The notes under the pieces are model-generated. The model saw only the letters and a program-made list of their open reading frames with translations, did no database searches and had not been told where the DNA came from. Below are positions 30,461-62,240 of a stretch of 64,000 bases of DNA, in pieces (position 1 is the first letter of the stretch; every line of letters begins with the position of its first letter). The stretch is from assembly GCA_017531845.1 (NCBI GenBank), contig JAFXKI010000007.1, positions 124,001-188,000 of the forward strand. Reading direction: 5' to 3'. This DNA comes from Opitutales bacterium. GTDB lineage: Bacteria; Verrucomicrobiota; Verrucomicrobiia; Opitutales; UBA953. Made by a program: the position numbers and the translations under genes.

Positions 30461-30505
30461 AAAAAAAGAGCCGGACACTTTTTTTGGGTGCCCGGCTCTT
30501 TTTTT
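30461..30505. terminator. Bidirectional terminator between the Rrf2 gene and cysK
   Basis: AAAAAAAGAGCCGG (30461-30474) and CCGGCTCTTTTTTT (30492-30505) are perfectly complementary around a loop that includes further pairing (CAC/GTG). The A and T runs allow termination in both directions. Confidence 0.93.
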
Positions 30506-31427
30506 ACTCGCTGTAAAGCCAAGTCGATAAATACCGCGTTCCCGTATCAGGGATAATCGTTACAATCGTCTGCCCCGCATATTCCGGACGCGCCGCCAAA
30601 GAAAGAGCCGCAAAAACGGCAGCACCGGCAGAAATTCCGGAATGAATACCCTCCTCTTTGACGAGGCGGCGCGCGGTAGCTCCGGCATCTTCATCGCTTA
30701 CGCGCAAAACTCCGTCCACAAGATTTGCATCGTAAATCTTCGGTACAAATCCGGCACCGATGCCTTGAATTTTATGCGGACCGGCGTTCCCGCCGGAGAG
30801 TACGGGCGAAGTTTCCGGTTCGACGGCAAAGATTTTTACGGAAGTTTTTTTCGCTTTCAGCGCACGAGCGACTCCCGTGAGCGTGCCGCCGGTGCCGACT
30901 CCGGCAACAACGACATCGACGTTCCCGTCCGTATCCGCCCAAATTTCTTCCCCTGTCGTGCGATAGTGTGTTTCCGAATTTGCCGGATTTTCAAACTGCT
31001 GCGGCACAAACGCGTCCGGATGTTTCTCTTTTAATTCAAGGGCTTTTTCAATTGCGCCGCTCATTCCCCGCGCGCCCTCGGTCAAAACGAGTTCTGCGCC
31101 GAAGCTCGATAAAAATTTTCGCCGTTCCACGCTCATAGTGTCCGGCATTGTCAAAATCAGCCGATAACCTTTCACCGCTGCGACCAGTGCCAGACCGATT
31201 CCTGTGTTCCCGCTGGTAGGCTCAATAATTAAACCGCCCGGAGTCAGTAAGCCCTTCGCCTCGGCAGCTTCAATCATTGCAAATGCGGCACGATCCTTGA
31301 CGGAACCGGAGGGATTGAGAAATTCCAGCTTCGCCAAAACCGTAGCATTCCCGCCCGGGTTCAACGCATTCAAGCGCACCAGCGGAGTTTTCCCGATGAG
31401 TTCAAGTATATTGTTTGCGATTTTCAT
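30504..31427 (-). CDS. cysK: Cysteine synthase (O-acetylserine sulfhydrylase)
   Basis: A 307-residue fold-type II PLP enzyme. The PLP lysine lies in [14 protein letters not shown], the substrate loop is [16 protein letters not shown], and the phosphate loop is [14 protein letters not shown]. It makes cysteine from O-acetylserine and sulfide. The 8-bp duplication TTTTTTAA at 31433-31440 and the viral transposon lie directly upstream: only 13 bp separate the start codon from the element. A TTGACA/TTGATT promoter that probably drove this gene is now about 7.9 kb away at 39316-39344, so expression may depend on the element's end or be reduced. Confidence 0.95.
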
Positions 31428-31432
31428 GGTGT

Positions 31433-31440
31433 TTTTTTAA
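31433..31440. repeat. Left target-site duplication TTTTTTAA
   Basis: The 8 bases immediately left of the element are identical to the 8 bases immediately right of it (39308-39315). Eight bp is the size made by IS1595-family transposases. Confidence 0.93.
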
Positions 31441-31471
31441 CGGGCTGTCATAGATAAAGAGAAGTAAGGGG
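31441..31471 (+). repeat. Left terminal inverted repeat of the element
   Basis: It begins CGGGCTGTCATAGATAAAGA and ends near AAGGGG. The right end read inward begins GAGCCTGTCATAGATAAGGG and also reaches AAGGGG. There are thirteen identical core bases (CTGTCATAGATAA), then a purine-rich similar stretch. Confidence 0.92.
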
Positions 31472-31521
31472 AGAGATACCCTGCGGGAATAAACTGTGAA
31501 CAGATTGTGAACGGTTGTCAA

Positions 31522-31552
31522 TAGCACGGTTCTTGCATGGAAAACCGTGCTA
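31522..31552 (+). promoter_or_regulatory. Hairpin over the transposase start region
   Basis: A perfect 10-bp stem TAGCACGGTT (31522-31531)/AACCGTGCTA (31543-31552) has the ATG at 31537 in its loop and ends on the ATG at 31552. In mRNA entering from outside it would mask initiation. It could also be an operator. Confidence 0.75.
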
Positions 31553-32295
31553 TGAAGAAAAAAATGAGACAATCACTAATTCGACGTTGCCGGGTAAGCG
31601 TCGCAAAGCAAAGAGTTTTGTTTGCGCTGTTTTGCGCGGGAGCAACCGCGCGGGCGAGCGCGCGCGCGGCGGGCGTGAACCGGAATACAGCGGCAAGAAT
31701 CTTTCGGGTTTTCCGCCTCTTGATTGCGCTTTCCCGGCTTTCTCTTGCGCCGTTTTCCGGGCGCGTCGAAATAGATGAATGTTATTTGCGCGGCGGGAAC
31801 GGCGGGCGTAAGGTTGCCCGACAAGGGCGTTGCAACGCGGGAAAGTTTGTCGTTGTCGGTGCGGCGCAACGTTGCCCGGAAACGGGAACGCGTCGGCTCA
31901 AAACGGCGGTCATTCCGCAAGCGAACCGGGAAACCTTGCACGCGTTCGCGCGGAAACACGTCGCGCCCGGAAGCGAAATCAACACGGACCAATTCAAGGC
32001 GTATAAACTCAACAAATGCGGATACGTCCACAAGCGCGTCAATCACAGCCTTGTTTTTAAGGATTTCCGAAACGGAGCTTGCACGAATACAATTGAAAGC
32101 GCATGGAGCGTTTTGCGGCGGCATTTAGGGCGTTTTTGCGGCGGTTATCGCCACAATTTACACCTGTTTCTTGCTGAAATAGAAATGCGCTTTGAATGCG
32201 GCGTGAAAGCCTTTGAAAAGCGGCTTAAGAAATTACTAAGAAAGCCTTGCCCGAAGCTATGTTTAAAGACAAGATTTCGCGTTTATGGACAATAA
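31537..32295 (+). CDS. IS1595-family (ISXO2-like) DDE transposase
   Basis: The protein has 252 residues. The DDE-like core shows VEIDECYLRGGNGGRK (first Asp, about residue 76), EINTDQFKAYK (second Asp, about 150) and the distal NTIESAWSVLRRHLG motif, characteristic of ISXO2/IS1016/Merlin-type enzymes. An N-terminal helix-turn-helix-like segment (ARASARAAGVNRNTAARIFRVF) probably recognises the ends. It should catalyse integration of the element with 8-bp target duplications. All visible catalytic positions are present, so it may be active. A second start at 31552 lies at the foot of a hairpin. No separate IS ends surround it, so it belongs to the whole element. Confidence 0.92.
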   Translation: MENRAMKKKMRQSLIRRCRVSVAKQRVLFALFCAGATARASARAAGVNRNTAARIFRVFRLLIALSRLSLAPFSGRVEIDECYLRGGNGGRKVARQGRCNAGKFVVVGAAQRCPETGTRRLKTAVIPQANRETLHAFARKHVAPGSEINTDQFKAYKLNKCGYVHKRVNHSLVFKDFRNGACTNTIESAWSVLRRHLGRFCGGYRHNLHLFLAEIEMRFECGVKAFEKRLKKLLRKPCPKLCLKTRFRVYGQ

Positions 32296-32485
32296 CGAAG
32301 AAAAGAAACTCTTGGCGGATATTTCCGAAATCAAAGAAACCTTGCGTCTCGTGTTTGACAGCGCAAAAAAACAAGAGGCGTTTACAAAGAAAAATTGGCG
32401 TTGGTGTTGGATTATCTCTGCATCAACGGCTACTTTTTTTGCCTTAGTTTACGCCTTTTTTATGGGTATGGTCGCGGCGAATTAG
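32285..32485 (+). CDS. Small single-TM protein overlapping the transposase end
   Basis: The protein has 66 residues. A charged helical N-terminal half (MDNNEEKKLLADISEIKETL) precedes one membrane segment (WCWIISASTATFFALVYAFF). Its start overlaps the transposase stop by 11 bp, suggesting translational coupling. It is the only other plus-strand gene in the element and converges with the structural operon only 3 bp away. The function is unknown; a membrane partner of the transposase or a virion/lysis protein are both conceivable. Confidence 0.7.
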   Translation: MDNNEEKKLLADISEIKETLRLVFDSAKKQEAFTKKNWRWCWIISASTATFFALVYAFFMGMVAAN

Positions 32486-32488
32486 CCT

Positions 32489-32719
32489 TTACGTTGCAAC
32501 GTATTTGAAGCCGATGAAAGACGCGCCGACGGCGGCGGCGAGGATTGCAAGAGACTGAATCCGGCACGACGGGTTCGCGGCGTGTGCGGCTTCGAGTTCA
32601 GCAAGGTTTTTCGTATTTTCGGCGTTGGCTTCCGCCTCCCGTGCGCTGAAATACGAATACGCGGAAACACCGCCCGCTACGATTGCGGGAACGGCAAGAG
32701 CGACAAGAGGAAAAGCCAT
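32489..32719 (-). CDS. Small two-TM membrane protein, last gene of structural operon
   Basis: The protein has 76 residues with an N-terminal hydrophobic segment (FPLVALAVPAIVAGGVSAY), an alanine/glutamate-rich helix (AREAEANAENTKNLAELEAAH) and a C-terminal membrane segment (LAILAAAVGASFIGFKY). It is unrecognised. It is the distal gene of the element's minus-strand operon, 12 bp after the gene at 32732. Short two-TM proteins are typical of the internal membrane of tailless phages, but no specific homologue can be named. Confidence 0.7.
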   Translation of the reverse strand: MAFPLVALAVPAIVAGGVSAYSYFSAREAEANAENTKNLAELEAAHAANPSCRIQSLAILAAAVGASFIGFKYVAT

Positions 32720-32731
32720 TTCTGCGCCTCC

Positions 32732-33040
32732 TTAGTTTTTCGTGTAAAGGTATCCCGCCACCGCGCCGACGGCGAAAGGCAGGAGCGCGCGCGTCCATTT
32801 TCCGCCGCAACGTGCGCCCGCCGAAAGCGCGGCGAGAATGCCGGTAATTGCGGCGGCGGCTTGCAGGCTTGCCAAAGTTTTTTCGCGGCGGGAAACTCCG
32901 TCTTTTGCGCCGTTAAATTCAGAAACGAGGCGGATTTCTTCCAAGTTGTCCGCCGGGTCAACGGCGAGGACAACGGCGAAGCCCGCCGCCGCGCCGAGTG
33001 CGTAAGGCGCGAAAGTCTGAACTGTTTTCGCTACGCTCAT
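32732..33040 (-). CDS. Multi-TM membrane protein of the element
   Basis: The protein has 102 residues with three hydrophobic segments (YALGAAAGFAVVLAV, AAAAITGILAALSAG and ALLPFAVGAVAGYLY) and a polar loop between the first two. Its ATG overlaps the stop of the upstream 35-residue basic peptide (ATGA), and a GGAG site lies within that peptide's coding region. The function is unknown; it is probably a virion membrane or assembly protein. Confidence 0.72.
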   Translation of the reverse strand: MSVAKTVQTFAPYALGAAAGFAVVLAVDPADNLEEIRLVSEFNGAKDGVSRREKTLASLQAAAAITGILAALSAGARCGGKWTRALLPFAVGAVAGYLYTKN

Positions 33041-33144
33041 TTTTTCGCCCTCCGGATCTTGCGCGCGCGTGCGCGAGGCGAGCGACGGGAACGCGTGGTT
33101 TTTGCGGTTTTGCGTTTCGTTTTTGAAGATTTTCGTTTTTTCAT
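33037..33144 (-). CDS. 35-residue protamine-like basic peptide
   Basis: I translated this by hand from the complement. The peptide starts MKKRKSSKTKRKTAKTTRSR, continues RSPRARARKIRRAKK and then stops. Twenty of 35 residues are Lys or Arg, and acidic residues are absent. The start lies 6 bp after the BACON gene stop and the stop overlaps the next ATG (ATGA), so the frame is locked into the operon. Highly basic short peptides condense DNA in some membrane-containing and eukaryotic DJR viruses (adenovirus mu and pVII are examples). A genome-packaging or DNA-binding role is inferred. Confidence 0.72.
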   Translation of the reverse strand: MKKRKSSKTKRKTAKTTRSRRSPRARARKIRRAKK

Positions 33145-33150
33145 AATGGA

Positions 33151-34140
33151 TTAAGGGTTTTGCGTGATAATGTAATGAAGAGTTGCGCCTTTTGCGTTGC
33201 GGAAAATGACAGTTCCCACGCGCCCTCCGTTTCCGCTTGCGCCGCTTGGTGCTGTGTTGCCGTCCGTTCCCGAGCCTGTTCCCGTGCTTCCGTCCGTGCT
33301 TCCGCTTCCTGTGTCCGAGCCGCTTTCTCCGGCGGCTTCCTGATTTACGACAACGGAAACGGATTCGCGCGTCGGGGATTCAGGCGCATTTGCGTAAACC
33401 GTAAGCGTTGCCGTGCGAGCGTTGCCCGTGTTTGCGGCGGCGCGTATTGCCTTGTTGGAATACGTCGCCCAATCTGTGCCGGAATCTACGAGAATTTCGA
33501 CGTTATCCGGCGAAACGGAAAGAGTTCGCGCGCCGCCGCCGTTCCCTACGTTCCAAACCGTAGGAACGACTTTAAAGGCTTCCCCGGCTTGCTCTACATT
33601 CACGGTCGCCGTTTCGGTCGTTCCGTCCGTCATTGTCGCCGTAATTGTGACGTATCCGGCGCGACGAATTGACGAATTTTCCGAAACGGAAATCCCGCTT
33701 GCCGTGTCGCTTAGGCTTTCGGAAATCCAAGAGCCGGAAAGCGTCGCGGAAAAAGATTCAAAACTACCGGAAACGGAAACGCCCTGCGTTCCGCCCGCCT
33801 TGTCAAAATTCAAGGTAGTAGGAGCGACGGAAAGAGGAATAATCACGGATTCAAAGCCGCTTGCCGTGATGTTTCCCGGACCGGTTGCGTTATATGCCGA
33901 ATATTGAAAGACAAACGTTCCCGTTGCCGTTGCGGTTGCGGAAACGACGGGAACGCCGATTATTTCTCCGGCATCGTTTGTTTCGTTTGCGTCTGCGCGC
34001 AAATTGATTCCGCAATCTGTGCAAGTAAGCATTCCCGCGCAATCGACGGAAAGCGTAATTTCGTCGCCCGCGTTGACCTTTGCGCGAAACGTTCCGGAAA
34101 CGGTTTCGCCTTGCGGAATCGTCTGTGAAAATTCAGCCAT
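33151..34140 (-). CDS. BACON-repeat, Ser/Gly/Thr-rich putative virion surface protein
   Basis: A protein of about 329 residues starting MAEFSQTIPQGETVSGTF. After an N-terminal beta domain come two BACON-like domains: APTTLNFDKAGGTQGVSVSG...TATVNVEQAG and VVPTVWNVGNGGGARTLSV...VSVVVNQEA. A low-complexity GSDTGSGSTDGSTGTGSGTD linker and a short C-terminal strand-rich tip follow. BACON domains occur in carbohydrate-binding and mucin-associated proteins and in phage tail proteins. The ATG overlaps the upstream stop (TAATG). A 17-residue upstream extension (to 34191) is unlikely. The role is probably host-glycan attachment. Confidence 0.75.
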   Translation of the reverse strand: MAEFSQTIPQGETVSGTFRAKVNAGDEITLSVDCAGMLTCTDCGINLRADANETNDAGEIIGVPVVSATATATGTFVFQYSAYNATGPGNITASGFESVIIPLSVAPTTLNFDKAGGTQGVSVSGSFESFSATLSGSWISESLSDTASGISVSENSSIRRAGYVTITATMTDGTTETATVNVEQAGEAFKVVPTVWNVGNGGGARTLSVSPDNVEILVDSGTDWATYSNKAIRAAANTGNARTATLTVYANAPESPTRESVSVVVNQEAAGESGSDTGSGSTDGSTGTGSGTDGNTAPSGASGNGGRVGTVIFRNAKGATLHYIITQNP

Positions 34141-35126
34141 TAGGAAAGAGCCTCCACTTGAATTTCTCCGGCTGAATCGGCGGTGAGCCAATCCGTATTT
34201 GTTTCAACTGAAATTTCCCCGTTCATTTCGTCCCCGGCAAGAGGCACGGAAAGCGTTTGCGCGCCTGCGCCTACTGTTTCAGACAAGACCATAGCCGCGC
34301 CCGTTGTCATGCTCGCAAGGGCGTTTTCGAGTTCTTGAATCCGTGTCGCCATTGCTTCAAATTGTGCTTTTGCAATTGCGGGAGTAAGTGCAACATTTCC
34401 CCGCGAATCGTCCAAACTGTTGGCGAGCTTTACAACGCCGCCGTTTGACGTTGTCGCAAAGCGAACGCCCGCGCTGCCGTTTGCGCACATTCCGACTAAT
34501 CCGGCATCGTTCGGAACGCGCACAGATGTTCCGAGTTTAAATACGCCGTATTGCCCGGTTGTCGCGACAGGGACGCGCATTTGTCCGTCAGAGTTGCGCA
34601 AGACGGGCGCGTTGTCATTCGTCGCTACGGTTTCTGCGGCGTATTTAACAAGCCCGTAAGTCGTTGACGTTGCCGGACCTATTGCGTTGAGCTGTTCAAT
34701 CAGGCTTTCGATTTCTTCCCGATTTTGCTGAATCTTTTCCCGCAAAATTGCGATTGCTCCCGCCGTTCCCGCGTCGCCTTTGCGACATTCGAGCATATAA
34801 CCGACTTGAAGAACGACGAAAACGCGCTCGTTCCCGACGCTTTCAAGCGTGATTTCATTGAACGGCGTTCCGTAATACTTGAACTCAACGCTTGTTCCCG
34901 TTTCGGACAAAAACGGCGCGCTGTGTCCGAGCGTAATCCGGCAAGCCGCCGGAAGCTGGTAGCCCTCCGCGTCCACGGCGTAGCATTGCGAGACGTAAAC
35001 GCTCGTCCCTACGATTTTGAGCGTTTGAGGCGCGCCCGGTTCAAGCGTAAACTCACGAGTTGAAATTGACGGCGTAGGTTGAACCGTTCCGAGGTTTTGA
35101 CGGTTTGAAAATGTTGGAATACTCAT
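34140..35126 (-). CDS. Fibre/spike-like protein
   Basis: The protein has 328 residues. The N-terminal ~110 residues look like a compact beta domain (FTLEPGAPQTLKIVGTSVYV). A short collagen-like break (CRKGDAGTAGAIA) and a coiled coil (ILREKIQQNREEIESLIEQL) come next. The C-terminal half has tail-fibre-type repeats (TTYGLVKYAAE, GQYGVFKLGTSVRV, GGVVKLANS) and ends in another beta segment resembling the BACON domains of the next gene. This domain order fits a trimeric receptor-binding spike anchored at a capsid vertex. It overlaps genes on both sides by 1-4 bases. Confidence 0.75.
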   Translation of the reverse strand: MSIPTFSNRQNLGTVQPTPSISTREFTLEPGAPQTLKIVGTSVYVSQCYAVDAEGYQLPAACRITLGHSAPFLSETGTSVEFKYYGTPFNEITLESVGNERVFVVLQVGYMLECRKGDAGTAGAIAILREKIQQNREEIESLIEQLNAIGPATSTTYGLVKYAAETVATNDNAPVLRNSDGQMRVPVATTGQYGVFKLGTSVRVPNDAGLVGMCANGSAGVRFATTSNGGVVKLANSLDDSRGNVALTPAIAKAQFEAMATRIQELENALASMTTGAAMVLSETVGAGAQTLSVPLAGDEMNGEISVETNTDWLTADSAGEIQVEALS

Positions 35127-35287
35127 TTATCTTTTTCCTTTTTCAAATTTTTATACGTTGCTACTGCCATATAAATTGCGGTCGCAAATCCCGCCGCCGC
35201 GCTCGCCAAATCCGGCAAAGACAACGAGGCGAACGTTCCCGCAACGCCGAGGAAAACGCGGTTGCAAATTTGTTCAAAATTATGCAT
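35123..35287 (-). CDS. 54-residue membrane protein, hidden small gene
   Basis: I translated this by hand. It starts MHNFEQICNRVFLGVAGTFA, has a hydrophobic stretch continuing to DLASAAAGFATAIYMAVATY, and ends KNLKKEKDK. The start lies inside the end of the 62-residue gene upstream, and the stop overlaps the spike ATG (ATGA). Both overlaps support real translation. One or two membrane segments with a basic tail suggest a holin-like or virion membrane protein; this is not established. Confidence 0.7.
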   Translation of the reverse strand: MHNFEQICNRVFLGVAGTFASLSLPDLASAAAGFATAIYMAVATYKNLKKEKDK

Positions 35288-35468
35288 TCGATTCCGGCGC
35301 GTCTTTCTTCTTTTTCGTCAGCTTATGCCAACCGAAAACCGCGACGATTGCCGAGCCAACGCCCGAAACGACGCAATTCCACGGGAACGGCAAAAAGCCC
35401 GCAAGCGTTTCAATAAAATTTTGTGCTGTGTTTGCCGCGTCTGCGGTCAAAAGAATAAGCGTATCCAT
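35280..35468 (-). CDS. 62-residue holin-like membrane protein
   Basis: It starts MDTLILLTADAANTAQNFIE, has a hydrophobic core FLPFPWNCVVSGVGSAIVAVFGW, and ends in a lysine-rich tail (HKLTKKKKDAPESNA). One or two TM segments plus a charged C terminus is the layout of small phage holins. No endolysin could be identified next to it, so the holin label is tentative. Confidence 0.65.
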   Translation of the reverse strand: MDTLILLTADAANTAQNFIETLAGFLPFPWNCVVSGVGSAIVAVFGWHKLTKKKKDAPESNA

Positions 35469-35490
35469 AATTTATTTACTTTTTTTTGTG

Positions 35491-35913
35491 TTATTTTTTA
35501 AGGAAAAAGAGAACGCCGAGCGCGGCGGCGGCAATAACGGCAATTTTCAAAATTTCGGCGGAATCGTTGCGCGTGAGATTGTTTGCGACGGTTTCCGCGA
35601 CGGCGTTCGACGAGTTCACGGAATCGGAAACGGCGGCGGTCATTCGGTTTTGCGTGTCCACAATCATTTCCTGCGTTCCCGCCATAACTTCGCCCGCCCA
35701 ATCAAAAGCCGTTTGAACAAGGTCGTCTGAAAGCTGTTCGACGTGAACCGCCGCGCCGCCGCCCGTGCCAATTCCTGCGCCCGTGTCGCTTTGCGAAATT
35801 GTCGCTCCGGCAAGGTTTATGACTGCGCCGCTCCCGCTGTTGGAAAGTTGCGCTTGTTGGTTGTAATTGTTCGAGGTTGTCGAACTGCTTGAAGAACTTT
35901 TCTTGCTTCCCAT
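35491..35913 (-). CDS. Tail-anchored virion-type membrane protein
   Basis: The protein has 140 residues. A Ser/Gln/Gly-rich N-terminal region (MGSKKSSSSSSTTSNNYNQQ) leads to a helical centre and one C-terminal membrane segment (ILKIAVIAAAALGVLFFLKK). The TM-then-KK ending is shared with the proteins at 36374 and 36622, so three proteins of the operon have the same tail-anchored plan. This fits proteins that line the internal membrane of a tailless virion. Confidence 0.7.
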   Translation of the reverse strand: MGSKKSSSSSSTTSNNYNQQAQLSNSGSGAVINLAGATISQSDTGAGIGTGGGAAVHVEQLSDDLVQTAFDWAGEVMAGTQEMIVDTQNRMTAAVSDSVNSSNAVAETVANNLTRNDSAEILKIAVIAAAALGVLFFLKK

Positions 35914-35916
35914 GAC

Positions 35917-36369
35917 TTAAATTTCTTTAATGAGCTCAATTTTGGTCGGTTGAAAACCGAGGCGATTTAGCGCGGCAAACACGCCCGGGCGAAAGGTTTC
36001 CGCGAGGATTCCGGCGCAACCGTGTTCCCGCGCGTATTCTTCCAATTTCGGCAAAAAAACGTCGTAAGTGCATTTCTCCCCTTGCGAGGCGCAACCTTCG
36101 ACAAAAAGAAGTTTTTTCCCTTCCCGGATTTGAGCCGAAAGAAAGAGAGTTCCCTTGCGTTCGTTTTCGCGAAAAATTCCGAGTAAAACGAGTTCCCCGG
36201 CAATCCAACGCCGCCGCATGATTTCTTTTTCAGCGGCGATGTTTGAAAGCGGAATCGTCTCAAAATCCGCCGACGCACGCACATCGTAATCGATTACGCG
36301 CAAAACGGCGCGCGCGAGGATTTTTGAATCCTTGCGCACGATTTCGCCGTTTTGTGTGTGCCGCGCCAT
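35917..36369 (-). CDS. GNAT-fold acetyltransferase-like protein
   Basis: The protein has 150 residues. The predicted strand-helix order and the segment DVFLPKLEEYAREHGCAGILAETFRPGVFAALNRLGFQPTKI, with the usual C-terminal NRLGF ending, resemble GCN5-related acetyltransferases. The acetyl-CoA-binding Q/RxxGxG/A loop is not clearly seen. It lies between two membrane-protein genes in the operon with spacings of 3-5 bp. Whether it modifies host or virion proteins is unknown. Confidence 0.6.
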   Translation of the reverse strand: MARHTQNGEIVRKDSKILARAVLRVIDYDVRASADFETIPLSNIAAEKEIMRRRWIAGELVLLGIFRENERKGTLFLSAQIREGKKLLFVEGCASQGEKCTYDVFLPKLEEYAREHGCAGILAETFRPGVFAALNRLGFQPTKIELIKEI

Positions 36370-36373
36370 CTGA

Positions 36374-36619
36374 CTACTTTTTCAAAAGGTAAATCGCGAT
36401 CAATGCCGCTCCCGCGATACCGAGAGCGAGAAGCCAATTCACGCCCGCGGAATTGCTCTGCGTGCCGGAAAAATTGACGTTCCCGAAAGAAAAATTTCCG
36501 GTAGTGCCGCCGCGCGCGTCTCCGCTTGTCGCTCCGGACTGCGGAGAACTACTCATTTCGGAGCTAAGCACGCCGCCGCCCATTTGCGCCGCCGTTGCCG
36601 CCGCTGTGCCTGTCGCCAT
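36374..36619 (-). CDS. Small tail-anchored virion-type protein
   Basis: The protein has 81 residues from the ATG at 36619 (MATGTAAATAAQMGGG), which follows the upstream stop by 2 bp. The frame extends further upstream but overlaps the previous gene. The N-terminal part is low-complexity Ala/Gly/Ser/Thr, and the C terminus is a single membrane segment ending in KK (WLLALGIAGAALIAIYLLKK). It has the same plan as its two neighbours. Confidence 0.7.
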   Translation of the reverse strand: MATGTAAATAAQMGGGVLSSEMSSSPQSGATSGDARGGTTGNFSFGNVNFSGTQSNSAGVNWLLALGIAGAALIAIYLLKK

Positions 36620-36621
36620 TG

Positions 36622-36885
36622 TTATTTCAAAAGTTTTTTGACAACGAGAAGAACGACAACGCCGCCCAAGCCGATAGCAATGTATTTCGCCCACGGCGTG
36701 ACGGAAACGACTTGTGTTTGTTGTGCAGGCGCGGAAACGGGTGTAGTTTCGCCCTTGTTTCCGGTATTGATTCCAACAATATCGCCGACTGCGTCGGTGA
36801 TACCGTTGACAACGTCAAGCGCGCCCGTCACACCGTTTTTCAGCGTGTCAATTCCTCCGTTGAGTGTGTCGATAATAGAAGCCAT
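36622..36885 (-). CDS. Small tail-anchored virion-type protein with strong ribosome-binding site
   Basis: The protein has 87 residues starting MASIIDTLNGGIDTLKNGVT. A perfect AAGGAGG lies 7 nt upstream and decides this start over the longer frame to 36927. An amphipathic N-terminal helix is followed by a Pro/Gln/Thr linker and a C-terminal TM segment with lysines (YIAIGLGGVVVLLVVKKLLK). It directly follows the capsid gene; strong translation fits an abundant structural protein. Confidence 0.72.
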   Translation of the reverse strand: MASIIDTLNGGIDTLKNGVTGALDVVNGITDAVGDIVGINTGNKGETTPVSAPAQQTQVVSVTPWAKYIAIGLGGVVVLLVVKKLLK

Positions 36886-36905
36886 TTTTTTAGCCTCCTT
36901 TCCGA

Positions 36906-37754
36906 TTAGAGCGACGAAACGACGCAATCAATGATACAATTCGGCGAAATCGCTTCTTCCGTGACAACGCGGATGTTGAAATTTGTTTTTTCCGAATTGA
37001 GAATGCCGGACTTAACGCGCCCCTGATTCAACATAATATGCGTCCATTTTCCGGAGTCTTCCATGTCATGCATTCGGTTAATGAGCGCAAAATCCTTGTC
37101 CTTGACGTGATAAATCGACGTTGTTCCGAGATAAACCTCGATTTCTTTGATTTTGTTTGTATCAAAGTGAAGAGCCTGCAAAAGCCCACGGACGGGAACG
37201 TCGTAGCAATACACGCCGCCCGCGTTCGCTGAAAATTGCTTCGTATAAAGAACCGTCTGCAAAAATTCGCCCGGCGGGAGCGCGGTTTCGTAGGTCGTTC
37301 CGTTTTCCGTGACCGTCTGCCGGGTAAGGTCGTAAAACTGATACCCTTTGAGTTCGGGAACGGAATCAAGCCCGGATTTAATTTTCACCTCAATCGTGAA
37401 AAGCTGAACGCCCGGACCTGTGCCGATGCAGAGAGCATCTTCCAACGCGGGCGTTTCCGCCCAAGGACGCTCAAAATAAATCGTAAGGCTGTTCGGGTCG
37501 TCGTATTGACCGCGCCCGTAAAGAGAATTGATTTCGTGAAGCTGTTCCGGCGTGTATCGAAGAAACTCCATGCCGTTCAGCAACATTCGGACATATTCAA
37601 ATTCTTTTACGCCGTAGGGCGATTCCGTCGTTCCCGAGCCTGTCAAAACGATTTTGTGATAGCGGCGCCCGAGGTTCAAATTCATCGTGGCAAGCCCGCC
37701 AACACTTACGCCGAAAAAGCCGTTGAGCGTTTCGCAAACAACATTCGGATTCAT
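36906..37754 (-). CDS. Candidate double-jelly-roll major capsid protein
   Basis: A 282-residue beta-rich protein without signal or TM segment. Several stretches look like DJR capsid proteins: FEYVRMLLNGMEFLRYTPEQ (strand, NG turn, strand, then a helix ending INSLYG), LTIYFERPWAETP followed by EDALCIGTGPGVQLFTIEVKI, and a second set YCYDVPVRGLLQALHFDTNKIKEIEVYLG closing with IDCVVSSL. The size matches PM2 P2 (~269). It is the largest gene in the operon apart from the surface proteins and lies about 0.4 kb downstream of the packaging ATPase, as in other DJR viruses. The call is by pattern and context; structure prediction would settle it. Confidence 0.7.
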   Translation of the reverse strand: MNPNVVCETLNGFFGVSVGGLATMNLNLGRRYHKIVLTGSGTTESPYGVKEFEYVRMLLNGMEFLRYTPEQLHEINSLYGRGQYDDPNSLTIYFERPWAETPALEDALCIGTGPGVQLFTIEVKIKSGLDSVPELKGYQFYDLTRQTVTENGTTYETALPPGEFLQTVLYTKQFSANAGGVYCYDVPVRGLLQALHFDTNKIKEIEVYLGTTSIYHVKDKDFALINRMHDMEDSGKWTHIMLNQGRVKSGILNSEKTNFNIRVVTEEAISPNCIIDCVVSSL

Positions 37755-37776
37755 TGCTTGTTTTTCCCTTTCTCAA

Positions 37777-37899
37777 TTAGGCGTTAAACATGTTTCGGAC
37801 AACCGGAATTTTGTCGGTAATGCCGAATTTTCGTTCGAGGATAATTCCCGCCAACGCAACGGCGGAAAAAATGAGTGCGGTTTTGAGTTTTTTGTTCAT
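37777..37899 (-). CDS. 40-residue membrane peptide upstream of the capsid gene
   Basis: I translated this by hand: it starts MNKKLKTALIFSAVALAGII, continues LERKFGITDKIPVVRNMFNA, then stops. A basic N terminus precedes one TM segment. No strong ribosome-binding site is visible, so confidence is moderate. It fits the pattern of small membrane proteins around the capsid gene. Confidence 0.55.
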   Translation of the reverse strand: MNKKLKTALIFSAVALAGIILERKFGITDKIPVVRNMFNA

Positions 37900-37983
37900 G
37901 ACTTTTTGTGTGGTTTTTAGTTTGTGATGAAATTTTTGATACAAAAAAAGCCGCTCGCAAGCGGCTTTGTGTCGGCAAATGTT

Positions 37984-38181
37984 CTATTTTGTCGGCAAAT
38001 GTTTCATTTTCATTTTTTCGCGGAATTTCGGATTGTTTTTCAGCCATTCAAGAGCTTCTTCCGGCGTAATAACAATGCGCGAAAATCCCGCCTTTCTCAT
38101 CGCGGAAACGTATCCGGGAGAACGCCCGATTTTCGCGGCAAGCTCCTTTCGGGATAAAATTTTTGTATCTAAAATTTGCAT
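37984..38181 (-). CDS. Small helix-turn-helix protein of the element
   Basis: The protein has 65 residues. RKELAAKIGRSPGYVSAMRKAGF is a clear helix-turn-helix with the turn at GRSP, followed by an alpha-helical EEALEWLKNNPKF. The start overlaps the ATPase stop by 13 bp. It could be the element's repressor, an excisionase-like factor or a replication accessory protein. It is the only recognisable regulator in the element. Confidence 0.72.
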   Translation of the reverse strand: MQILDTKILSRKELAAKIGRSPGYVSAMRKAGFSRIVITPEEALEWLKNNPKFREKMKMKHLPTK

Positions 38182-38681
38182 ACTTTCAACGGTTTGAAAA
38201 ATTCCTTGTAAAAAAAGTGATACGGCGGGAGCGACGGCGCGCGCTTCAATCCCTCATCGTTAAACGCTTCCGCGACGATTTCCGCGCTTTCCTTGTGAAC
38301 GCTAAAAAGGAAAAGCGTTCGGCAATTGTCGCGGATTGTCGGAGCGAGCCCGCGCAAGCGTTGGCAGATGAAAACAACCTGATGCCCGCAATGCCGCGAC
38401 ATCGTCGCAAGCCAAAGAAATTTCGCCTTTTCGCCCGCTCCTAAGCCGATGTTTGCGAGGGCTTCGTCTACGATAATAAGGCAGTTCCGGGAACGCTTCG
38501 CGGCAATCAAAAGCGCGTCAAGGCTCGCCGTTCTCCACGTTGCCGGGAACGCATCGCGCAAGGGGTCAAAAACGAGAACACCCTTGCCGCGACGCAAGGC
38601 GCGTTCGGCAAGGCGTTTCGCGGCGTAGCTTTTGCCGCTCGCGGCGCAAATTGTGAACAATTCCGCCCGGAATTGTGTCAT
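38169..38681 (-). CDS. A32/FtsK-HerA-like genome-packaging ATPase
   Basis: The protein has 170 residues from the ATG at 38681 (MTQFRAELFTICAASGKSYAA); a GTG at 38714 is the alternative. The P-loop reads CAASGKSY, so the GKS is kept but the first glycine is missing. Walker B is RNCLIIVDEAL. The sensor region MSRHCGHQVVFICQRLRGLAPTIRDNC, with Gln and Arg, is typical of A32-like packaging ATPases of membrane-containing tailless viruses. It would pump DNA into preformed capsids. It lies upstream of the capsid gene in the same operon. The 5' part overlaps the previous frame by more than 110 bp. Confidence 0.78.
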   Translation of the reverse strand: MTQFRAELFTICAASGKSYAAKRLAERALRRGKGVLVFDPLRDAFPATWRTASLDALLIAAKRSRNCLIIVDEALANIGLGAGEKAKFLWLATMSRHCGHQVVFICQRLRGLAPTIRDNCRTLFLFSVHKESAEIVAEAFNDEGLKRAPSLPPYHFFYKEFFKPLKVCKF

Positions 38682-39252
38682 AAGACTTTTTCTTAAAGTC
38701 TTTTTTTGGGACACATTCCCGCACGCGCGTTGTGGTAAAGTCTTGTGAATAACTCAAAAAGACGAAACGCGGCTTAATTGTGAATAACTTTTTCGCCGGG
38801 TCAAATTCAGCCTCGCAGATTGCGCGCTCTTTCTCCGCCAAAATCCCGCGAACGTGAACACACAAACGCGCCTGTGTGCGGCTCGAAACGCTTTTCCGGT
38901 AAACTCTCCGGATTGCCTTTTTGAAAGGCTCAAAAAACGCCTTTCCTTTCGTATAAGAACGGATTCCGGCTTGCGCCAAAAGCGCGGCAATCGTCTTTGC
39001 CCGATGGTAATATTCCCCCCGTCGCCTCTTGTTGACCAACTGCCAACGAAAATACTTCTTCGGCTTTCCGTATTTCCTTTGGAAATTACGCTCTACGCGC
39101 TTTTTGTGTTCCCATTCCCGCGCGCGTTCACGCGCAACGTCAGCGGCGCGAATTTCGGCAATTTGCGCCATTGCCTCGTCCATATCGTCAGCGCGCCCGA
39201 TGAAAACGAGCGCGCCCGCTAAGCTAAGACTGGTTCTGGGATTCTCTTGCAT
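38566..39252 (-). CDS. First operon gene, basic protein of unknown function
   Basis: The protein has 228 residues and is strongly basic (many Arg and Lys in HKKRVERNFQRKYGKPKKYF and KKAIRRVYRKSVSSRTQARL). I recognise no domain. As the operon's leading gene in a virus with no visible replication protein, a DNA-binding or replication-initiation role is a guess. Its last 50 or so codons overlap the packaging ATPase in another frame. Its start codon lies in the 3' arm of a perfect 12-bp hairpin just inside the right terminal repeat. Confidence 0.6.
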   Translation of the reverse strand: MQENPRTSLSLAGALVFIGRADDMDEAMAQIAEIRAADVARERAREWEHKKRVERNFQRKYGKPKKYFRWQLVNKRRRGEYYHRAKTIAALLAQAGIRSYTKGKAFFEPFKKAIRRVYRKSVSSRTQARLCVHVRGILAEKERAICEAEFDPAKKLFTIKPRFVFLSYSQDFTTTRVRECVPKKDFKKKSYDTIPGGIVHNLRRERQKLRRETPCRTRLASRQGCSRF

Positions 39253-39276
39253 AGGTAGCTCGCAAGCTACCTATGC
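39249..39276 (-). promoter_or_regulatory. Perfect hairpin over the start codon of the right-end operon
   Basis: GCATAGGTAGCT (39249-39260) and AGCTACCTATGC (39265-39276) pair perfectly around a 4-nt loop. The ATG of the first operon gene (39250-39252 on the complement) is inside the stem. It mirrors the hairpin at the left end. Confidence 0.85.
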
Positions 39277-39307
39277 CCCTTTCTCCGCCCTTATCTATGA
39301 CAGGCTC
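39277..39307 (-). repeat. Right terminal inverted repeat of the element
   Basis: Read inward from 39307 it is GAGCCTGTCATAGATAAGGG followed by a purine-rich tract ending in GGGG. The core CTGTCATAGATAA is identical to the left repeat. Confidence 0.92.
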
Positions 39308-39315
39308 TTTTTTAA
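39308..39315. repeat. Right target-site duplication TTTTTTAA
   Basis: It is identical to 31433-31440. Joining the flanks at one copy restores a continuous arsR-cysK intergenic region of about 76 bp. Confidence 0.93.
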
Positions 39316-39375: not shown

Positions 39376-39723
39376 CTACGATTTCAAGGAGGACGCAAGC
39401 TCTCCCAACCTGTTTTTAGTAGAACGGCACAGGCATTCGCAAATCCCAGGAAGCGAATCGTCCGCCAAGGAATAATAAACCTGAATGCCGTCTTTCCGGC
39501 GTTTAACCAAGCCGACAGCGGAAAGTTTTGCCAAATGCCGAGAAATATTTGCCTGTTTCGCACCGGATTCTTCGACAAGCTCCGTAACGTTGAGCTCCCC
39601 CCTGCAACAAAGCAAATTCAGAATACGCAGACGCATAGGTTCCCCCATCGCCGAAAGTTTTTCCGCTATCAGAGAAAGCGCATCGGGACTCAATAAATGC
39701 TTCGCAGACTTCTTCTTTGCCAT
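39376..39723 (-). CDS. ArsR/SmtB-family transcriptional repressor
   Basis: The protein has 115 residues. The winged helix includes MGEPMRLRILNLLCCRGELNVTELVEE and recognition helix SGAKQANISRHLAKLSAVGLVKRRKDGIQVYYSL. Cysteines in LLCCRGEL and in the C-terminal ICECLCRSTK could bind a metal or metalloid or act as a thiol sensor, but the classical ELCVCDL motif is absent. It is divergent from a flavoprotein disulfide reductase. A near-identical 17-bp operator lies in front of each gene, so it very likely represses both. Confidence 0.88.
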   Translation of the reverse strand: MAKKKSAKHLLSPDALSLIAEKLSAMGEPMRLRILNLLCCRGELNVTELVEESGAKQANISRHLAKLSAVGLVKRRKDGIQVYYSLADDSLPGICECLCRSTKNRLGELASSLKS

Positions 39724-58220: not shown

Positions 58221-58419
58221 AACCTCTTTAAATTTCTCTCAAGAGATAAAGAAGCCTCGAATAGACACAAATTACCACGAATGATTTCTGCCTTGCCTCA
58301 AACGTCCAGTCCAAGCTTGAAGTTCAGTCCCTCCGAAAATAGTATTCTTCTCAGGTTTCCAACGCCGACGCATCACCTTCCCATCCTGAAAAATGCCGCC
58401 GATTCTACCCAAACAACAA

Positions 58420-60732
58420 ATGAGTGAAGAAGATATAAAGCTTCAATATATCACACCGGCACTCACGGCAAAATGGCCGCGTGAAAAAATCACGATGGAA
58501 ACCAAAATCACAGACGGAAGAATTAATCTCAGCGGAAATATCGTTCGACGCGAAAAACCGAAATTTGCGGATTACGTTCTTTGGCTCAACCCGCAAACAC
58601 CTCTCGCAATCGTTGAGGCAAAAGACAACAAGCACAGCGTCTCCCACGGGCTTCAGCAAGCAATCGAATATGCCCGAAAAATGGACATCCCCTTTGCCTA
58701 CAGTTCCAATGGTGACGGATTTTCCGAGCACGATTTTTTGACAGGGAAAGAACGCAATTTCGGTCTCAACGAATTTCCACCGCCGGAAGAACTCATAGCG
58801 CGCTACAAACAGGGGAAAAACAGCGGAAATGCGTTAACACCGCAGCAGGAAATCGTGAGTGCACAGCCATATTATACCAGCCAAACAACGCACTCGCCGC
58901 GGTACTACCAGCGCAACGCCGTCAACCGCACTTTAGACGCGATTGCACGCGGAAAAAATCGAATTCTGCTCGTCATGGCAACGGGAACGGGCAAAACCTA
59001 TACGGCATTCCAAATCGTTTATCGACTGCTTCAAAGCAACATGAAGCGCAAAGTACTTTACCTTGCGGACAGAAATATTCTCGTCGATCAATCCATTCAG
59101 CAGGATTTTTCCCCGATGGAGAAAATCATTCACAAGGTCAGCGTATCCAAAGACGATCCGCAAACTATCACCTCACACGAGGTTTATTTCTCTTTATATC
59201 AGCAGCTTGTCGGCGACGACGACCAAGAGCATTTCCGCAAGCTCTTTAAACCCGACTTCTTTGACCTTGTCATCGTCGACGAATGCCATCGCGGCTCAGC
59301 AAAAGAAGAAAGCCGCTGGCGAAAAATCCTCGACTATTTCAATTCCGCGACACAAATCGGCATGACGGCTACGCCGAAGGAAACCAAATATATCTCCAAC
59401 CTCAATTACTTTGGTGACCCCGTTTACAGCTACAGTCTGAAAGAAGGCATTGAAGACGGATTTCTCGCGCCGTTCAAAGTCATCAACATAAAGACCAATA
59501 TTGGCGACGGCTGGCGTCCGATCAAGGGGCAACGCGATATTTACGGAAACGAAATCCCGGATCGCATCTACACCAACTACGACTACGATTACAACATCGT
59601 CATCGCAGATCGCACGTTCCAAGTTGCGTCAGAAATCACGCGTTACCTCAAAGCAACCGACCGCATGGCGAAAACGATTGTCTTCTGCGCGAACGAAGAT
59701 GCCGCCGAACGCATGAGACAAGCGCTCGTCAATCTCAACTCTGACATGGTTGCGAAAAATCCGGATTACGTTGTGCGCATCACGGGAAGCGACATTTACG
59801 GAAAAAGCAAGTTGGACTATTTCATATCCGTTTCGAGCCCGTTCCCGGTTATCGCTACGACCTCTAAGCTCCTCTCAACCGGAGCCGATTGTAAGATGAC
59901 AAAACTCATTGTCCTCGACGAAATGATCGGCTCCATGACCGAATTTAAACAAATCATCGGACGCGGGACACGCTTACGCGAAGCCGAGGGAAAGACACAC
60001 TTCACCGTCATGGATTTTCGCGATGTTTCCCGCCTCTTCGCAGATCCGGACTGGGATGGCCCCGTCGAAATCAATCCTGCCTTTGAAAGCGGTTTGGGAA
60101 CGGGGACGAGGACAGGTCCCCAAGGAGTCGGAGAAAAAGAGGAACCCGACGAAATCGGTCCCTTGCCCACACCATTTGTGGATGCCGCCGGTTGCCCCGT
60201 GCGCATTATCGACAAAACCGTCGCCGTTTACGGAAACGACGGAAAACTCATCCGCTACGAAAACATCGTCGAATACACGAAACGTAACCTCCTCGAAGAG
60301 TTTTCGTCCATCGACGAATTTTCCCGACAATGGAACGTAGCCGAAAAGAAAATCGATATCATTCAAAAAATACGCGAACGCGGAATTGATCTTCAGACAC
60401 TCATGCTTGAAGAACACATGGGAGCCTTCGACGAATTCGATTTCATCCGCTACCTCGCGTTCGGAGAAACACCTCGCTCCCGCCAAACCCGCGCAAACAA
60501 CGCCAAGAATCACCCGAACCTCCTTTCCTTTACGGGCACATCGCTCTCCGTTCTCAACGCACTTCTCGAAAAGTACGTCGAGTCCGGCGTCAGCGAAATC
60601 GAAAAAATCGAAGTCCTCCGCTTAAATCCTTTTATTAAATTCGGCAGCCCGGCAAAAATCGTTTCCCTCTTCGGCGGGAAATCCGGTTACCTCAACGCTA
60701 TTAAACAACTCGAAAACTCCATTTACTCATGA
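58420..60732 (+). CDS. hsdR: Type I restriction enzyme R subunit
   Basis: A protein of about 770 residues. The N-terminal nuclease domain contains KPKFADYVLWLNPQTPLAIVEAKDN, with the PD-(D/E)xK-like Asp and ExK. The SF2 motor follows with VMATGTGKTYTAFQIVY (Walker A), IVDECHRGSAKEE (DECH) and QIIGRGTRLRE (motif VI). It cuts and translocates unmodified DNA together with HsdM and HsdS. It is shorter than EcoKI HsdR (~1,170), as in the EcoEI-like group. The ATG at 58420 is preferred to 58393. The stop overlaps the hsdM start (ATGA). Confidence 0.93.
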   Translation: MSEEDIKLQYITPALTAKWPREKITMETKITDGRINLSGNIVRREKPKFADYVLWLNPQTPLAIVEAKDNKHSVSHGLQQAIEYARKMDIPFAYSSNGDGFSEHDFLTGKERNFGLNEFPPPEELIARYKQGKNSGNALTPQQEIVSAQPYYTSQTTHSPRYYQRNAVNRTLDAIARGKNRILLVMATGTGKTYTAFQIVYRLLQSNMKRKVLYLADRNILVDQSIQQDFSPMEKIIHKVSVSKDDPQTITSHEVYFSLYQQLVGDDDQEHFRKLFKPDFFDLVIVDECHRGSAKEESRWRKILDYFNSATQIGMTATPKETKYISNLNYFGDPVYSYSLKEGIEDGFLAPFKVINIKTNIGDGWRPIKGQRDIYGNEIPDRIYTNYDYDYNIVIADRTFQVASEITRYLKATDRMAKTIVFCANEDAAERMRQALVNLNSDMVAKNPDYVVRITGSDIYGKSKLDYFISVSSPFPVIATTSKLLSTGADCKMTKLIVLDEMIGSMTEFKQIIGRGTRLREAEGKTHFTVMDFRDVSRLFADPDWDGPVEINPAFESGLGTGTRTGPQGVGEKEEPDEIGPLPTPFVDAAGCPVRIIDKTVAVYGNDGKLIRYENIVEYTKRNLLEEFSSIDEFSRQWNVAEKKIDIIQKIRERGIDLQTLMLEEHMGAFDEFDFIRYLAFGETPRSRQTRANNAKNHPNLLSFTGTSLSVLNALLEKYVESGVSEIEKIEVLRLNPFIKFGSPAKIVSLFGGKSGYLNAIKQLENSIYS

Positions 60733-62240
60733 GCAATCTTTCCGGATTTGTAAAAAAACTTCGCGACATTATGCGCAACGACGCCGGTATTAACGGCGAC
60801 GCCCAACGCATCGAACAAATCGCGTGGATCCTCTTTCTCAAAGTTTACGATGCCAAGGAACAGGACTGGGAACTCGAAGACGAAAGCTACACATCGATTA
60901 TTCCGGAGAAACTTCGCTGGTCAAACTGGGCACACGACGACCGAAGCGGAAATGCGCTCACCGGCGAAAAACTGCTGAACTTCGTCAACAACACGCTCTT
61001 CCCCGTTCTGAAAGGGAAAGACCTCAAAGACGCATCCGGAAAAATCCTTATCGAAGGCATCAAAGTTTCCGCCGAGACTCCGATTAAAAAAGCTATCGTC
61101 CGAACCACCTTCGCCGATGCCAACCAATACATGAAAGACGGTGTACTGCTCCGCGAAGTCATCAATGTCATCGATGCTCTCAACCTTTCCGATTACGAAG
61201 AAAGCCACGCCTTCGGCGAAATTTACGAATCCATTCTTAAAGAGCTACAGAGCGCCGGCTCCTCCGGAGAATTTTACACTCCACGCGCCGTCACCGATTT
61301 TATGGCACAGACCATTCGTCCCAAAATCGGCGAGCGCATGGCAGACTTCGCCTGCGGAACCGGCGGATTCCTCACCAGCTGGCTCAAAGAACTCAGCCAA
61401 GAAGTTTCCTCCGCCGCCGACGTTACCGCTTACGGCAATTCCGTTTACGGTATCGAGAAAAAGCAGTTTCCGTACATGCTCTGCATCACCAACATGCTTC
61501 TGCATGATTTAAACGTCCCGCAGGTCTTTCACGGGAACGCACTCACCCACAACGTTCTCGATTATACCGCCAAAGACCAATTCGATGTCATCCTCATGAA
61601 TCCGCCCTACGGCGGGAACGAAAAAGCCGACGTCAAAAGCCACTTCCCCGACGACCTCGCATCCTCCGAAACCGCCGATCTCTTCATGGCGGTTATCATG
61701 TACCGACTCAAACAAAACGGACGTGCCGCCGTCATCTTGCCCGACGGATTCCTTTTCGGCACAGACAACGCCAAGCTCAACCTTAAGAAAAAACTCCTCG
61801 CCGAATTTAATCTCCACACCATTGTCCGACTTCCCGCAAGCGTGTTCGCGCCCTACACATCCATTACGACGAACATTCTTTTCTTCGACCGCACCCAGCC
61901 GACCAAGGAAACCTGGTTCTATCGCCTCGATATGCCGGAAGGCTACAAGCACTTCTCCAAAACCAAACCGATGAAAATCGAGCACTTTGCGCCCGTCATC
62001 AATTGGTGGAACAAACGCGAAGAAATCTCCGTAGACGGCTTTGATAAAGCGAAAAAGTTCTCCGCACGGGAACTCGCCGAAGAACTCGGATTCAACCTCG
62101 ACCAATGCGGGTTCCCGCACGCCGAAGAAGAAATTCTCGAGCCTATGGATTTGATTCTGCGCTATCAGGAAAAACGAGCCTCACTCAATGCTGAAATCGA
62201 CCGCGTCCTCGCCGAAATCTCTCAAAAACTGAACGCTTAA
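60729..62240 (+). CDS. hsdM: Type I restriction-modification M subunit (N6-adenine methyltransferase)
   Basis: The protein has 503 residues. An N-terminal helical domain (LRDIMRNDAGINGDAQRIEQIAWILFLKVYD) precedes SAM motif I ADFACGTGGFLTSWL and catalytic motif IV ILMNPPYGGNE. It methylates adenine at the site set by HsdS. The start overlaps the hsdR stop by four bases. hsdS normally follows directly; here a 0.5-kb unit with a GxxExxY gene intervenes. Confidence 0.96.
   Translation: MSNLSGFVKKLRDIMRNDAGINGDAQRIEQIAWILFLKVYDAKEQDWELEDESYTSIIPEKLRWSNWAHDDRSGNALTGEKLLNFVNNTLFPVLKGKDLKDASGKILIEGIKVSAETPIKKAIVRTTFADANQYMKDGVLLREVINVIDALNLSDYEESHAFGEIYESILKELQSAGSSGEFYTPRAVTDFMAQTIRPKIGERMADFACGTGGFLTSWLKELSQEVSSAADVTAYGNSVYGIEKKQFPYMLCITNMLLHDLNVPQVFHGNALTHNVLDYTAKDQFDVILMNPPYGGNEKADVKSHFPDDLASSETADLFMAVIMYRLKQNGRAAVILPDGFLFGTDNAKLNLKKKLLAEFNLHTIVRLPASVFAPYTSITTNILFFDRTQPTKETWFYRLDMPEGYKHFSKTKPMKIEHFAPVINWWNKREEISVDGFDKAKKFSARELAEELGFNLDQCGFPHAEEEILEPMDLILRYQEKRASLNAEIDRVLAEISQKLNA

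Follow-up and report, generated by a model that had tools for sequence, protein, structure and literature searches.

How did the virion genes of a tailless virus come to lie between the ends of a transposon? The question is raised by positions 31441-39307 of the window, the 64,000-nucleotide stretch of an Opitutales bacterium genome (assembly GCA_017531845.1, contig JAFXKI010000007.1) analyzed here, which sits within a 332-kb contig of a 1.69 Mb genome. The 7,867-bp element lies between cysK (30504-31427, minus strand) and an ArsR-type regulator gene (39376-39723, minus strand). It is very probably a provirus of the order Vinavirales (PM2-like; tailless phages with an internal membrane) that was integrated by its own IS1595-family transposase, whether or not it is still virion-competent, since one pair of transposon ends encloses both the transposase and the virion genes and since a related transposase accompanies a similar capsid and packaging ATPase on a second contig, L063 (see below).

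The 17-bp terminal inverted repeats (TIRs), CGGGCTGTCATAGATAA at the left (31441-31457, plus strand) and GAGCCTGTCATAGATAA, the reverse complement of 39291-39307, at the right (minus strand), match at 14 of 17 positions and are flanked by two exact copies of the 8-bp TTTTTTAA (31433-31440 and 39308-39315). Because the target is T-rich, this duplication by itself is weak evidence. We therefore rely on the empty site, found by using CysK as the query against all eight genomes of the host genus. In the sister species G003 (CysK 97% identical), the arsR-cysK region, with a single copy of the 8 bp, aligned unbroken with the joined flanks after one duplication copy was removed, indicating that the element is missing from the sister species and that its boundaries are the insertion boundaries. 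The insertion thus took in the whole unit at once and duplicated 8 bp of the target. The first-pass annotation, made from the letters of the DNA, had described the same unit and deduced transposition from its ends; both statements hold, and the G003 site settles the insertion. Beyond the two element ends, the end motif does not occur again in the host genome, no internal end copy with fewer than five mismatches was found inside the element, and the element is present as a single copy. Its tetranucleotide make-up deviates from that of the host (0.219, versus at most 0.161 for 21 host stretches of equal size).

The transposase (252 a.a., 31537-32295, plus strand) matches Pfam PF12762 DDE_Tnp_IS1595 (6.8e-27) and NCBIfam NF033547 IS1595 (1.6e-32), with no IS630-family match in either database, and the alignment shows a complete catalytic triad (D80, D151 and E187), confirming the earlier assignment of an IS1595-type DDE transposase within the ends. 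The DDE domain is its sole Pfam domain; no N-terminal zinc ribbon was found. The IS1016 group is devoid of the zinc-ribbon domain, and IS1595-family members usually leave 8-bp duplications (PMC8101967). In ISApl4, which is of the IS1016 type, the ends read GGGGCTGTACTAGA and the 8-bp duplications are AT-rich (PMC12561309). The window ends are of the same GGG(G)CTGT type, differing in the outermost base (C and G), and the duplication is likewise AT-rich and 8 bp long. The DDE domain, the lack of a detected zinc ribbon, the GGG(G)CTGT..TAGA ends and the duplication thus fit the IS1016 subgroup of IS1595 on all counts, and transposition activity is predicted from the sequence. Passenger genes are tolerated in this family, to which ISApl4 and the mobilizable MTnSag1/tISCpe8 belong, as in the window element; however, the family's cargo is none or a resistance gene, whereas here it is an operon of virion genes.

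The major capsid protein (MCP) of this operon is encoded at 36906-37754 (minus strand). The 282-a.a. product, noted initially as a candidate double-jelly-roll (DJR) capsid, matches Pfam P2_N (4.6e-19, 68.9 bits, cut-off 25) and P2_C (1e-6, 29.1 bits, cut-off 25). A single-sequence AlphaFold model was useless (predicted local distance difference test, pLDDT, 33) and was discarded; the model built from a five-sequence alignment, comprising the window protein and four distant relatives, reached a pLDDT of 70.7 and a predicted template modeling score (pTM) of 0.67. The closest solved structure was PM2 P2 (Foldseek 5.1e-13; 2vvf, Z 19.2, 251 residues aligned, root mean square deviation 3.9), followed by the STIV, PRD1 and PBCV-1 capsids. 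Judged by its family matches and its predicted fold, the protein is a PM2-type DJR capsid, as proposed.

The 181-a.a. protein encoded at 38169-38714 (minus strand) shares 33-36% identity with the packaging ATPases of autolykiviruses (tblastn, best E 2e-15), and a search with its family profile retrieves STIV B204 (4.9e-5), matches that identify it as the predicted FtsK/HerA-type genome-packaging ATPase already suspected in the first-pass annotation. The text of PMC9502842 gives the Vinavirales core order as ORF (open reading frame) h, ATPase, P7, MCP, P3, P8, GNAT, P10 and spike. The element operon follows this order from ORF h to the spike, and agrees with that of Vibrio phage 1.249.A. The candidates, all on the minus strand, are a 228-a.a. 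protein for ORF h, an assembly factor (38566-39252), a 40-a.a. membrane peptide for P7 (37777-37899), membrane proteins of 87 a.a. for P3 (36622-36885), 81 a.a. for P8 (36374-36619) and 140 a.a. for P10 (35491-35913), and a 328-a.a. spike or head-fiber protein for the P1 spike (34140-35126). In pairwise comparison P3 is weakly similar to its counterpart in the related locus L025, P10 likewise shows weak similarity, and the others are too divergent; ORF h, P7, P8 and P10 are placed by position; the spike label derives from position and a weak PHROG head-fiber match (1e-4; tail collar, 1.6e-3). Between the capsid and spike genes lies the core gene for a GNAT-type acetyltransferase (150 a.a., 35917-36369, minus strand). 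This protein has no direct Pfam match, and was assigned through the genes at the equivalent position in the related locus L024 (phmmer 3.5e-9; hhalign 96%) and in L063, whose counterpart is Pfam Acetyltransf_1. PM2 and the Autolykiviridae thus share with the window element the DJR capsid, the packaging ATPase, the GNAT gene and the gene order. Nearly all members of their order encode a replication protein (Rep, polymerase B or others), whereas none was recognized here; their genomes are either circles or bounded by inverted terminal repeats, and transposases are reported only in HGV-2, a human-gut group.

Of 373 genomes of the host order searched with P2_N, five scored above the cut-off, the window genome among them; P2_N tallies are lower bounds, as this search missed the capsid of the genome that carries L063. 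The packaging-ATPase profile matched seven genomes. The neighborhoods L022, L024 and L025 encode tyrosine recombinases, L023 encodes a Rep_1-type protein, and other verrucomicrobial relatives have large proteins at the Rep position or a single-stranded DNA-binding protein. No match to the window transposase was found in the verrucomicrobial neighborhoods compared. Searches of viral contigs with the capsid, the transposase, the ATPase and the transposase pair as queries found no relatives except the known Vibrio phage. Several candidates were rejected: the genomes G273 and G736 as capsid carriers (P2_N below the cut-off; the G273 locus L026 matches no element protein), 11 single, unpaired exact matches to the end motif in viral contigs, which had neither viral nor transposase genes and were taken as chance, and the fecal 'phage' MT839549, which matches solely through a stand-alone IS1595 gene. 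As separate observations, the verrucomicrobial Vinavirales prophages L023 (genome G238) and L073 (G311) both adjoin a 4-alpha-glucanotransferase (malQ-like) gene, with no integrase recognized, suggesting a shared attachment site, and in L023 a plus-strand ORF block (L023:10579-12775), possibly an accessory-gene hotspot, interrupts the virion operon, separating the ATPase gene from a small pre-capsid gene.

The second case, L063 (CANQUN010000057.1, 10,733 bp), was found by an ATPase-profile scan of genome contigs. It belongs to the metagenome-assembled genome Lapin-032, probably from rabbit, judging by the isolate name; the bin is assigned to Clostridia, a doubtful label. L063 encodes an ATPase, a P2_N/P2_C capsid (2.2e-8 and 1.4e-7), a GNAT protein, a collar-domain fiber, a basic peptide and a Rep-like protein, and its IS1595 transposase (7.8e-18) is convergent to the viral operon, as in the window element. 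The contig terminates exactly at GGGACTGACTTAGATAA, identical to the right end of the window element at 13 of 17 positions. The two transposases are 48% identical over the shared part, versus at most 37% for seven other IS1595 transposases compared, and they cluster with a support of 0.91. The gene block that the first-pass annotation proposed to look for between the same ends in other genomes therefore recurs with its transposase, ATPase, capsid and a similar right end, but not with a left end. A search of the order assigned to L063's genome gave no third example, a weak negative given the missed capsid. In addition, the sister species G006 has a decayed remnant of the transposase gene (136 bp, 91% identical; L031:9343-9478, G006:C16) and, on a different contig, a lone end motif (L057:8371-8387, G006:C6), which point to earlier insertions and indicate that related elements visited the host genus before.

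Several points weigh against integration by the element's own transposase, or against an intact virus. The examples found number two only, the window element and L063. The L063 transposase frame is broken and split over two frames (L063:9912-10602), which could reflect decay, an assembly error or a programmed frameshift; a candidate for the undetected L063 left end, near position 711, was tested and was not significant. The confidence of the capsid model is moderate (pLDDT 70.7 with five sequences, 33 with one). As L063 encodes a Rep-like protein, replication in this group does not have to be the work of the transposase. Finally, with neither a lysin nor a Rep recognized, the window element may be defective.

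A defective provirus, that is, a dead viral cassette carried as transposon cargo after the loss of its Rep, lysin and regulators, is the main alternative, a real if lesser possibility that is compatible with transposase-mediated integration. Searches of the element proteins against Pfam and PHROG recognized no replication protein (the operon starts at the ORF h position, and unrecognized small proteins remain), no cell-wall lysin and no P14/P15/P16 regulator. The element occurs once in the genome, passenger genes are known from IS1595 elements, and the published verrucomicrobial Vinavirales, for which no lysin is reported in the text of PMC9502842, are suspected there to be inactivated. On the other hand, every listed reading frame is uninterrupted and the operon is tightly packed, the perfect duplication and the empty site in the sister species indicate a fairly recent insertion, and in L063 it is the transposase frame that is broken, with the viral genes open. 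It is improbable that the element is a helper-dependent satellite, which would make its own capsid and depend on a co-resident phage for replication and lysis: the lack of a recognized Rep or lysin and the length of 7.9 kb, below the 9-12 kb typical of Vinavirales, would suit one, but an own capsid and ATPase are unusual for a satellite. Least likely, and largely refuted, is an ordinary Vinavirales prophage integrated otherwise and entered by an unrelated insertion sequence, with borders other than the transposon ends: related prophages do use tyrosine recombinases or adjoin malQ without a recognized integrase, and sequence alone cannot separate transposases of selfish elements from those domesticated by phages (PMC6813254), but the TIRs and the duplication enclose the entire viral operon, no second internal end exists, the G003 site lacks the unit in its entirety, and the same arrangement, with a related transposase, is seen again in L063.

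Integration of the provirus by its own transposase suggests that transposition, rather than a phage integrase, serves for integration, and perhaps for replication, in some tailless phages. Replicative excision, in which one copy stays and a double-stranded circle is made, has been proposed for IS1595-type elements, and the MTnSag1 circle has been seen (PMC5704250). By analogy, we tentatively consider a copy-out and packaging route, in which the transposase would bind the TIRs and copy the element into a double-stranded circle, in line with the proposal for IS1595-type elements such as MTnSag1. This circle would be transcribed, the ATPase would package it into the DJR capsid and, post-infection, it would paste itself into an AT-rich target. 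PM2 virions contain circular double-stranded DNA, so a transposase-made circle would be a ready packaging substrate. Transposition might also supply replication, with or without host enzymes, as hinted by the absence of a recognized Rep in the element when nearly all Vinavirales encode one; since L063 retains a Rep-like gene, such Rep-less replication would be a derived state. Excision, circles and particles of the window element are predictions of this scheme.

Phage Mu, a tailed phage of about 37 kb that encodes MuB and makes a 5-bp duplication, and Mu-like phages likewise integrate through a DDE transposase and duplicate their target, but the enzyme and virion are unrelated to those of the window element. 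More speculative still than the packaging route, and rather doubtful, is a Mu-like lifestyle evolved independently in membrane-containing tailless phages, in which the IS1595 transposase would replace both the integrase and Rep, the circle would be packaged and transposition would be the replication. The window element might be a second origin of transposition-based phages besides Mu.

The expectation of the first-pass annotation that known DJR prophages use tyrosine or serine integrases, XerC/D or plasmid-like maintenance was too narrow: the gut Vinavirales HGV-2, known here by description and conceivably identical to the element's group, have a DDE transposase assigned to the IS630 family, proposed to mediate integration (Yutin et al. 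2022, PMC9502842), and inovirus genomes also contain transposases (PMC6813254). The idea of a transposase-carrying Vinavirales is therefore not wholly new. The window enzyme, in contrast to that of HGV-2, belongs to IS1595 and made an 8-bp duplication, and the main text on HGV-2 gives no ends, duplication or empty site (PMC9502842), whereas the window element has all three. No publication combining 'double jelly-roll' and 'IS1595' was found in the literature searched. New here are the IS1595 transposase family, the exact ends, the duplication, the empty site and the apparent absence of a Rep gene. The same paper describes the integration mechanism as unclear for most Vinavirales prophages (Yutin 2022, PMC9502842); with defined ends, a target duplication and an empty-site control, the element makes this question directly testable. 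The parallel to Polintons drawn at first holds in part. Polintons/Mavericks and Teratorn also have virus genes within transposon ends, and Polinton capsids are DJR as well; however, Polintons depend on an integrase of the retrovirus type and on polymerase B, and Teratorn combines piggyBac with a herpesvirus (PMC5601938). Neither polymerase B nor a retrovirus-type integrase was found among the element proteins searched (Pfam), so that 'bacterial Polinton' is an analogy only. The element is nevertheless a bacterial counterpart to the virus-transposon fusions on the DJR lineage of Polintons, virophages and giant viruses.

The remaining operon genes, all on the minus strand, bear out the compact operon with small membrane proteins and a protamine-like peptide described at first. 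Membrane proteins of 76 a.a. (32489-32719) and 102 a.a. (32732-33040) occupy the lysis-region position, by position only, and next to them lies the arginine/lysine-rich, protamine-like 35-mer (33037-33144), which has similar basic peptides in L063 and L024. The spike and BACON genes named in the first-pass annotation are present, the former label with the weak match given above and the latter below the Pfam cut-off (BACON 4.4e-4, two stretches) in a 329-a.a. BACON-like surface protein (33151-34140). A 54-a.a. membrane protein (35123-35287) is weakly holin-like (PHROG holin 4e-3), a 62-a.a. membrane protein lies at 35280-35468, and a 65-a.a. helix-turn-helix regulator (37984-38181) matches PHROG transcriptional regulator (2e-4). 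On the plus strand, a 66-a.a. membrane ORF (32285-32485) follows the transposase, and family searches found no match for it. Hairpins just inside both ends (31522-31552, plus strand, z -3.0; 39249-39276, minus strand, 12-bp stem, z -4.0) overlap the start codons of the outermost genes, the transposase and the first operon gene, and may shield the element against transcription entering from its surroundings. Elsewhere in the window, type I restriction-modification genes (58393-62240; HsdR- and HsdM-like ORFs) were noted by eye from the translations.

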